DNA from: Roseobacter sp. MH60115
GTDB taxonomy: Bacteria; Pseudomonadota; Alphaproteobacteria; Rhodobacterales; Rhodobacteraceae
Assembly (NCBI RefSeq): GCF_015644665.1
Contig: NZ_JADOBQ010000002.1
Coordinates: forward strand, 310,001 to 374,000
Length of the DNA stretch: 64,000 bases
Reading direction: 5' to 3'
The translations under genes were made by a program, and so were the position numbers. The notes under the pieces are model-generated. The model saw only the letters and a program-made list of their open reading frames with translations. It was not told where the DNA came from and did not search any database. Numbering within the stretch: position 1 is the first letter of the stretch; every line of letters starts with the position of its first letter. Positions 4,410 through 15,221 of the stretch are shown here, piece by piece.

Positions 4410-4883
4410 CTAATTGTCACCGCGATCCAGGATCGGGGCGGTTGGCAGCGGGTTGGGCAATTCGTACTCCGGTTCAGCGGCTTCGGCCGCCGCGCGCGCG
4501 GCAGCAGCTGCTTTCTCTGCAGTACGCTCGGCGTCGCGGGCCTCCTGAAGGGCCTTGGATTCGGCGCGCAACTTCGCTTGCTGCACAAGGAACTCATTTT
4601 CGGCCGGTTTGTCCGCTTGCGCATCGATCACGGATTTCGGCGTTGCCTCAACCGGCAGCATTGCCACCTGTCCCCGTTTCAGCAAACTGGCGAGGTGAGC
4701 GCCGCCTGTTCCGGTCCCATTCCCGGCCCCCTGTCCGGAATGATCTGATGCCATGTTGGCGCCGTTGCCGGATGCGGATTTCGCGGGCGGCTGGCCCGCC
4801 TGAACGCCTGCAACCTGTGCGTCATTTTGTGCAGGGGCCACCGGCTGTGGCGCATATGGGGCATTAAAGGATATCGCACTCAT
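4410..4883 (-). CDS. Hypothetical Ala-rich protein with coiled-coil segment
   Basis: A 157-residue protein I do not recognise. It starts with a low-complexity Gln/Pro/Gly/Asn region (residues 1-70), followed by a charged Ala/Glu/Arg helix likely to be a coiled coil (about 100-140, AEKAAAAARAAAEAAE) and a short Pro-rich tail. No signal peptide or membrane segment is seen. ATG at 4883 was chosen because GGAG stands six bases ahead; an upstream TTG overlaps that site. It is convergent with preA with only three bases between stops. Its composition is like the flagellar or rod-export type small proteins of the group, but no function can be assigned. Confidence 0.7.
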   Translation of the reverse strand: MSAISFNAPYAPQPVAPAQNDAQVAGVQAGQPPAKSASGNGANMASDHSGQGAGNGTGTGGAHLASLLKRGQVAMLPVEATPKSVIDAQADKPAENEFLVQQAKLRAESKALQEARDAERTAEKAAAAARAAAEAAEPEYELPNPLPTAPILDRGDN

Positions 4884-14804: not shown

Positions 14805-14820
14805 TGTGAACCGGATCACA
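14805..14820. promoter_or_regulatory. CRP/FNR-type palindrome
   Basis: TGTGAACCGGATCACA matches the CRP-family pattern TGTGA-N6-TCACA exactly in both arms. A second half-site TGTGAGCCGG begins at 14853. It lies 77 bp before the small unit at 14897 and 99 bp before the divergent phosphatase gene. Confidence 0.4.
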
Positions 14821-14896
14821 TACCTGAGGTGGAAAATACCGCTAGATAGAGATGTGAGCCGGGGTGATTTACCTCCTCGGAAGTGGAGTAACGATT

Positions 14897-15064
14897 GTGA
14901 CCAGAGTACCTGATTTAAATGACGACCCCCGGGGCATTTCCCCGGATTTCACCCCGGTTCCGCGCACCTCTTCCTGGCGTGCAACGGGGCGCAGCCCAGT
15001 CAACCGTCGTCCCGGTCCGAAATGCCCCTCTACCTGGCGTTTCACCGACTGGGCTGCTCTCTGA
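14897..15064 (+). CDS. Small Pro/Arg-rich ORF (55 aa), unknown
   Basis: GTG at 14897 is preceded by GGAG (14885-14888) with eight bases spacing, and the frame runs 55 codons to TGA. The product is basic and rich in Pro, Arg, Ser and Trp, with two related pieces (SSWRATGRSP and STWRFTDWAA). No domain is recognised. The same DNA folds into several hairpins and ends in a strong terminator, so it may be a structured non-coding transcript rather than, or as well as, a protein. Ranked as a plausible but unproven gene. Confidence 0.45.
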   Translation: MTRVPDLNDDPRGISPDFTPVPRTSSWRATGRSPVNRRPGPKCPSTWRFTDWAAL

Positions 15065-15139
15065 CTAAAGGAACGCAGTTTCTCCCCCTGCGTTTCCTTC
15101 TTCCCTGACGGGTCGGTGTTTCACCGGCCCGTTTTTTTT
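14929..15139 (+). ncRNA. Candidate structured transcript
   Basis: Four hairpins follow one another on the plus strand: CCGGGG/CCCCGG (14929-14945), a perfect 11-bp pair GCAGCCCAGTC/GACTGGGCTGC (14991-15001 with 15047-15057), an 11-bp stem with one bulge (AAGGAACGCAG/CTGCGTTTCCTT, about 15067-15100), and a terminator stem at 15108-15132 with eight Ts. No known RNA family was recognised by eye. The alternative is the 55-codon ORF that overlaps it. Confidence 0.35.
15108..15139 (+). terminator. Strong intrinsic terminator
   Basis: An 11-bp stem (ACGGGTCGGTG / CACCGGCCCGT, one wobble) with a TTT loop is followed by a run of eight Ts. It ends the small unit at 14897. Confidence 0.85.
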
Positions 15140-15221
15140 CCTCCTTTGATCAAGCCGTCTGGCAAATGCCGTGTCGAGGTGCCAGAAACGGCGCCAGAGC
15201 AGGCAGGGGCAGGGTGTGCGT

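Follow-up and report, generated by a model that had tools for sequence, protein, structure and literature searches.

A conserved small-protein gene with a structured, probably dual-function transcript and a CRP-type site in Roseobacter

The window analysed in the present study is a 64-kb stretch of DNA from Roseobacter sp. MH60115, and the locus of interest is a compact unit at 14805-15139. An earlier note had described here a TGTGA-N6-TCACA palindrome, a GTG start with GGAG, a 55-codon frame, an 11-bp stem, additional hairpins and a terminator with eight Ts. All of these main elements were found, and the 11-bp stem (GCAGCCCAGTC with GACTGGGCTGC) lies inside the frame. The unit is composed of the following features.

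14805-14820, no strand assigned: CRP-type palindrome TGTGAACCGGATCACA, followed by TAC; a TGTGA-N6-TCACATAC site in 12/12 genus copies
14842-14847, plus strand: candidate -10 element CTAGAT, placed by its position relative to the inferred start, a weak match to the consensus
14854, plus strand: inferred transcription start GTGAGCCGGGG, 41.5 bp from the site centre in 12/12 copies, where conservation resumes
14854-14961, plus strand: long-range helix of the closed state, leader 14854-14870 with ORF codons 14946-14961
14859-14880, plus strand: alternative hairpin predicted for the nascent leader, pairing CCGGGG 14859-14864 with CCUCCUCGG 14872-14880
14873-14888, plus strand: GGAA-loop hairpin covering the Shine-Dalgarno (SD) sequence GGAG 14885-14888, invariant in 12/12
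14897-15064, plus strand: 55-codon ORF with a GTG (14897) or ATG start, protein ending RPGPKCPSTWRFTDWAAL before the stop
14987-15061, plus strand: helix 5 (14987-15001 with 15047-15061, including the 11-bp stem) and inner helices 6 and 7, within the ORF
15069-15097, plus strand: 3' UTR hairpin with a C-rich loop, invariant UCUCCCC at 15081-15087
15107-15139, plus strand: intrinsic terminator (15107-15133; 12 pairs, 8 of them G-C) with a run of eight Ts ending at 15139, stem and T-run in 12/12

The unit is present once per genome in 12 of the 19 Roseobacter genomes and missing from the other seven; none of the 80 further genomes covered by the DNA search (99 in all) gave a match to it. In the alignment of the 12 copies, the DNA 5' of the palindrome is diverged, and the palindrome and the stretch from GTGA to the terminator are conserved. 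The flanking genes are mostly, not invariably, common to the copies within the genus. All 12 copies carry TGTGA-N6-TCACATAC, the TGTGA-N6-TCACA site of a class II CRP-type promoter, and the distance from the site centre to the conserved GTGA is exactly 41.5 bp in every copy, despite a variable spacer sequence. A site centred 41.5 bp before the start is the geometry of class II CRP/FNR promoters, and the transcription start is therefore provisionally placed at 14854. The earlier note had also reported a second half-site, and TGTGA is indeed found at 14853-14857, in full in nine copies (the first T is replaced by C in two and by G in one), with GTGA itself kept in all 12; since this GTGA coincides with the presumed 5' end of the transcript, it is not read as a second binding site. 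The candidate -10 element reads TTGAAT, TTGATT or TTAAGT in some relatives. The exact palindrome TGTGA-N6-TCACA occurs five times in the 4.76-Mb genome of the strain versus once for the reversed-pattern control, and 111 times versus eight when summed over the 19 genus genomes. The CRP/FNR-like control put forward in the earlier note is supported by the CRP-type site kept at fixed spacing in 12/12 copies, and control of the unit by a Crp-family protein is likely.

Three of the other four palindromes in the genome of the strain sit in a single locus, L082, one of them within a cytochrome c1 gene, identified by eye as petC; the other two lie in the interval from this gene to the distal end of a Crp-family gene with the Pfam domains cNMP_binding and HTH_Crp_2. 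Paired sites 323-395 bp apart were observed in 12 of the 13 genus genomes, among 19, for which sites were fully listed, G010 being the one without a pair. In all 12 Crp-like loci, which were picked for showing the site pair, the order after the Crp-like gene is a first site, a conserved small ORF (49-56 residues) and a second site. In L082, this small ORF (4529-4678, minus strand; also seen in L173-L183) is preceded by the Crp-like gene and a perfect palindrome, and its product contains SPVKAMITWLVEADREFRVAQSMV. A conserved RNA-like element was also observed on the minus strand at L082:4120-4404 (G000:C14), 3' of the second site, which has the form TGTGA-N6-TCACATAC; it ends with ACUCUCCCCAGGGUCUG and a terminator, is convergent with the petC-type gene, and has CUCUCCCC in 11/12 loci and UCCUCCCC in the G004 copy. 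A 116-base piece of this element was found in none of the 26 genomes of other genera searched. The element has no Rfam match at threshold, and seven sub-threshold matches at the Crp-like locus (best sodF_sRNA, 25.1 vs 46) were attributed to chance or to terminator look-alikes. The overlap in UCUCCCC between this second element and the loop of the unit is suggestive only. From the shared sites, we infer that the Crp-like regulator might act on the unit.

The 55-codon frame has neither indel nor internal stop in any of the 12 copies, starts with GTG in eight and ATG in four, and is the only one of the six frames open in every copy; both of the remaining forward frames carry stops in 12/12, and those on the reverse strand do so in 4, 9 and 12 of 12. 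The dN/dS of the ORF ranged from 0.32 to 1.28 in the printed pairs, namely those with G000 or G004 (1.28 for G000 vs G006), and amino-acid constraint judged from dN/dS alone is not impressive. The protein, P0001, ends WRFTDWAAL before the stop and falls within a proposed family of mostly 25-56 residues, rich in proline and ending [R/K]FTDWAx[L/I/F]. The pattern W[RK][FY]TDWAx[L/F]-stop was found in 20 stretches of 84,980 named species genomes, and 16 of these are such ORFs, seven being this unit in Roseobacter and nine lying elsewhere, in genomes with names such as Litoreibacter, Primorskyibacter, Sagittula, Tropicibacter and Shimia and in one labelled only 'Alphaproteobacteria bacterium'; the other four matches (L058, L062, L065 and L076) were set aside as chance. 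In a sample of 394 Rhodobacteraceae genomes, about one per genus, a profile matched 26 genomes at E <= 0.01, and 19 loci of these matches were inspected, of which three (L102, L105 and L107) proved not to encode tail proteins; a further two (L098 and L101) are doubtful and were not counted. A broader tail pattern occurred at 41 places in 37 of the 394 genomes, with one place for the reversed control. Thirty-two ORFs were inspected for this pattern, nine of the 41 places lying outside them, and 31 of the 32 begin with ATG after an SD-like stretch of 3-6 bases, starts having been chosen by the SD score of the script; the remaining one is cut by a contig end. These ORFs are of 25-56 residues (one of 71), mostly look Pro-rich, and end exactly [R/K/Q]FTDWAx[L/I/F], with an aromatic residue (W, Y or F) preceding the R/K in 17/32.

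A search with the single protein gave 38 genomes; nine loci were examined with the W-requiring pattern, which found the tail in five, L029 and L032 were recognised as tail loci with Y, and the rest were unused. Two or three tail ORFs are carried by each of G183, G202 and G435; at L099, L106/L154 and L161, two different FTDWA-tail ORFs per genome were seen, in tandem (L099 and L106) or about 1.3 kb apart. P0001 and 24 further members had no match in Pfam, NCBIfam or PHROGs, so the tail family appears to be an undescribed one, new to these three collections. A class-wide search of 240 genomes gave, beside the genome of the strain itself, three weak matches (E 0.005-0.009), which were taken as chance because an in-frame stop interrupts two of them and the third falls inside a frame of 312 aa, and the family is regarded as confined to Rhodobacteraceae, or nearly so. 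No paper on the unit or the tail was found in the literature, of which the subscription part is mostly uncovered, so that this absence is weak evidence. A profile search of the PDB returned one match, at E 0.95, a chance hit, and the single-sequence structure model of P0001 (pLDDT 59) is featureless and uninformative. Because the motif stands at the C-terminus and the remainder is variable and Pro-rich, the tail may be a docking motif on a disordered Pro-rich body. The small-protein part of the earlier proposal is the best supported one, since short ORFs with the same C-terminal motif occur in other Rhodobacteraceae genera, and the unit is very probably a real small-protein gene.

Genes of the window locus recur beside distant family members. 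Among 38 distant loci, which include two places entered twice and mostly span 1.5 kb per side, 12 have a match to the His phosphatase, DUF2938, CutA, thiY or EttA (EttA at >=80% identity), and the count rises to 19 when CspA is included; His phosphatase, DUF2938 and CutA were named by Pfam, and CspA, EttA and thiY by eye. This recurrence supports common descent of the loci, and shared locus ancestry accounts for it, so a translation-related role, suggested by the ABC-F neighbours, was not adopted. The recurrent neighbours fall into two settings, one with a TfoX_C-like gene just 3' and the other with EttA, CspA, CutA or the phosphatase. In the regions of L057:5578 and L072:2955, among others, the tail ORF lies just 5' of the TfoX_C-like gene, and several loci of this group have a nucleoside diphosphate kinase and an ABC-F protein nearby (all by eye). 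At E 1e-5, plasmid and phage sequences gave no match to P0001, although a protein this short makes the test a weak one, and the tail pattern had none in viral contigs; together with the lack of a PHROGs match, a mobile origin is not supported. None of the 34 distant members with usable upstream DNA matches 9 of the 10 positions of the Crp site (L070, L068 and one of L161, with short upstream DNA, and L166, with none, were left out), and TCTCCCC was found within 200 nt downstream of none of 35. Since neither was found in the distant members, both the Crp site and the C-rich loop seem to have been added at the level of the genus to a protein of older origin.

The RNA is strongly structured. The 290-nt strand folds at -127.7 kcal/mol versus -95.1 +/- 4.7 kcal/mol in shuffles (z = -7.0), and 0/200 shuffles were as low in energy. 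RNAalifold gave 74 pairs for the 12 transcripts, with 97.2% of the cells paired and 10 pairs showing two-sided changes. Two-sided compensatory cells numbered 24 versus 9.6 +/- 2.6 in shuffles (0/500), and the slid-partner control gave 37-48% paired and at most seven two-sided cells, figures to be read with the structure derived from the same alignment and relatedness not fully removed by the controls. Long-range helix 1, which joins the leader with the ORF, has 15 pairs, 92.7% of cells paired and two pairs changed on both sides. Helix 5 with helices 6 and 7 has 100% of cells paired, with both sides changed at two helix-5 pairs, one of which belongs to the 11-bp stem, and at a single helix-6 pair; four further changed pairs lie in the stem of the 3' hairpin and one in the terminator. 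Helix 2 never varies and is without covariation support. Synonymous divergence from the window copy was 0.05-0.41 in the ORF (11 genomes), versus 0.55-0.73 in the phosphatase (7 genomes), 0.40-0.67 in DUF2938 (7), 0.24-0.59 in CutA (4) and 0.16-0.69 in thiY (4); only the highly conserved CspA (0.08-0.31, 5 genomes) falls in the range of the ORF. As synonymous change in the ORF is below that of most neighbours, its codons are probably held by something besides the protein. Stem and codon conservation in relatives had been set beforehand as the refutation test of the earlier proposal, and both proved to be conserved; a conserved ORF and conserved RNA structure beyond coding, two of the marks of a dual-function RNA beside action in trans, are found together. 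Over the whole 64-kb window, 0 Rfam families reached the gathering threshold, and eight sub-threshold matches in the region (best ylbH, minus strand, 26.2 vs 50 bits) were regarded as chance or terminator look-alikes.

Folding predictions along the growing transcript suggest two states of the leader. At 40-45 nt, CCGGGG is predicted to pair with CCUCCUCGG (mean probability 0.88-1.0) in 12/12, and the SD to be 0.87-1.0 free (0.87-0.97 at 45 nt), also in 12/12. From 50 to 100 nt, the predictions for the SD are mixed and vary with the genome (0.02-0.93 unpaired), several being closed already at 80 nt. From about 105-110 nt, once CACCCCGGUU (codons 18-21) exists, the leader would pair there, which would free the anti-SD to close the SD, with G004 as the exception. 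In the full transcript, the predicted unpaired probability of the SD is <=0.07 in 9/12 and 0.18, 0.25 and 0.43 in G007, G016 and G004. The G004 copy (L012) alone keeps the leader on the anti-SD in the full transcript, with a partly open ribosome site, and the folding of its 100-nt piece agrees. In four of the 12 genomes, shuffles of base composition that kept the SD hairpin were run, and both states (>=0.85 free at 45 nt, <=0.1 at 120 nt) appeared in 2, 2, 2 and 6 of 300. The strands of the nascent-leader and SD hairpins are invariant, and hence covariation cannot test either. On these folding models, we consider the existence of a translational switch in the leader an evenly balanced question.

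In the 3' hairpin, TCTCCCC is invariant in 12/12 copies, with an unpaired probability of 1.0 in each, and the stem that carries it covaries, so that an invariant C-rich loop sits on varying stems. By analogy, UCUCCCC might be a seed for the purine-rich ribosome sites of other mRNAs, and the chance that the RNA acts in trans appears to be about one half. The mmgR/suhB RNA has a C-rich motif before its 3' terminator, and the unit is like mmgR/suhB (RF00519) in this arrangement; membership in RF00519 was rejected (15077-15146 scores 21.4 bits vs a gathering score of 41). For the alpha-r14 family, PMC10746234 describes an invariant C-rich motif in unpaired hairpin regions on differing stems, as in the unit. 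The CIN1 transcript ccaF1-CcsR of Rhodobacter and rhizobia resembles the unit in that a small-protein gene and sRNAs share one intrinsically terminated transcript (PMC10253847 and PMC10746234); CIN1 has three or four C-rich hairpins and the unit one, and the promoter reported for ccaF1 is RpoHI/RpoHII-dependent, whereas the unit has a Crp-type site. Moreover, the CIN1 protein is a DUF1127 protein, whereas that of the unit has no Pfam match and is not assigned to DUF1127; the anti-SD loop motif of cuckoo RNA is CCUCCUCCC, whereas the loop of the unit is UUUCUCCCCC (UCUCCCC in all copies); and the RNA helices of the unit pass through the ORF, unlike those of CIN1. The comparison with CIN1/CcsR is therefore one of layout and likely mode of action, since CCUCCUCCC and DUF1127, defining features of that family, are absent from the unit.

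Other alphaproteobacterial RNAs share parts of this design. Pos19 of R. sphaeroides, of 219 nt, is reported to regulate its targets independently of sORF translation, and is like the unit a short transcript with its own promoter, an SD, a small ORF and a terminator; it differs in its RpoE promoter and in its occurrence in R. sphaeroides strains, not being found in other species, and structure through the ORF, present in the unit, is unmentioned in the passages on it (PMC5036791). The sRNA UdsC comes from the 3' UTR of RSP_7527, whose mRNA encodes a hypothetical protein; it resembles the unit by description, but is RpoHII-dependent (PMC9779115). In the uORF-dependent attenuation of a DUF1127 gene in Sinorhizobium meliloti, pairing of a ribosome site with a C-rich element sets a two-state outcome at a small gene, as proposed for the unit; that element is formed by the first codons of the upstream ORF and acts on termination, whereas the unit has its anti-SD before the start codon and no constant downstream gene (PMC12218461).

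Herein, we propose an explanation of the unit as a Crp-driven dual-function small-protein gene with a leader switch, which we hold to be fairly probable as a whole. The protein family, the codon conservation, the RNA structure and the spacing of the site are computed results. The unit would be a free-standing gene of about 286 nt. An activator of the Crp family would bind at -41.5 and start transcription at 14854; most likely this is the protein encoded next to the petABC-type cluster, which carries the same sites. The RNA would encode a 55-residue member of the new Rhodobacteraceae family, with a probably disordered Pro-rich body, the docking tail [R/K]FTDWAx[L/I/F] and a partner for that tail. 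The nascent leader would pair with the anti-SD and leave the ribosome site free; when codons 18-21 have been made, the leader would pair with them instead, and the released anti-SD would shut the ribosome site. The closed transcript, with its terminator and unpaired UCUCCCC, would then probably serve as an sRNA on purine-rich ribosome sites. In a bolder form, the transcript would be time-shared by its own folding, giving a burst of the FTDWA protein first, during transcription, and a UCUCCCC-seed sRNA afterwards, with the Crp regulator driving this RNA as well as the second small ORF and a second RNA with the same seed; we regard this form as rather unlikely.

The same data may be read with the unit as the mRNA of a small protein and nothing more, the structure acting in cis on translation or stability and the C-rich loop serving in processing or stability. 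Most of the structure is wrapped around the ribosome site and the ORF, and the family members of other genera have neither the Crp site nor UCUCCCC, so the protein is the shared part, which fits such an mRNA. However, the 3' hairpin is remote from the SD and not part of the ORF, its covarying stem holds an invariant, unpaired UCUCCCC as expected of an interaction loop, and the second RNA-like element beside the Crp-like gene carries CUCUCCCC in 11/12 loci; we consider this account distinctly less probable than not, though the most serious competitor. The opposite simplification, an sRNA that encodes no protein and whose open frame is accidental, would suit the strong structure and the synonymous constraint, the GTG start in 8/12 copies and the SD predicted closed in the full RNA in 9/12, but it is very improbable in view of a frame kept without indels in 12/12 and of C-terminal residues that recur in short ORFs of other genera, where ATG is preceded by an SD-like stretch. 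An attenuator was also considered, as a gene preceded by a small ORF, hairpins and a terminator has that look; here it would be a leader peptide and terminator for the downstream DUF2938 gene, whose match begins 158-188 nt past the ORF in 5/12 genomes. In three others, however, the match is 621-1147 nt away, in four there is none in the roughly 1.2 to 6.7 kb scanned downstream, and the unit is intact in all 12 though the downstream gene varies, which leaves attenuation hardly credible. The earlier suggestion of an sRNA, a small protein or a dual-function transcript under CRP/FNR-like control is supported. In all likelihood the unit is a genuine gene that belongs to a new family of small proteins and has an unusual, structured and probably dual-function transcript.

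The FTDWA tail provides a sequence signature for very small proteins unknown to Pfam, NCBIfam and PHROGs. The findings also point to a Crp-family regulator with recognisable sites at small RNAs and small ORFs, and if the time-sharing reading were true, small RNAs and tiny proteins would make up most of the regulon recognisable for this regulator. A single stretch of nucleotides in Roseobacter seems to be used for a protein and a translational switch, and perhaps for an sRNA as well, so that these roles can be separated by point mutations in a harmless marine bacterium.
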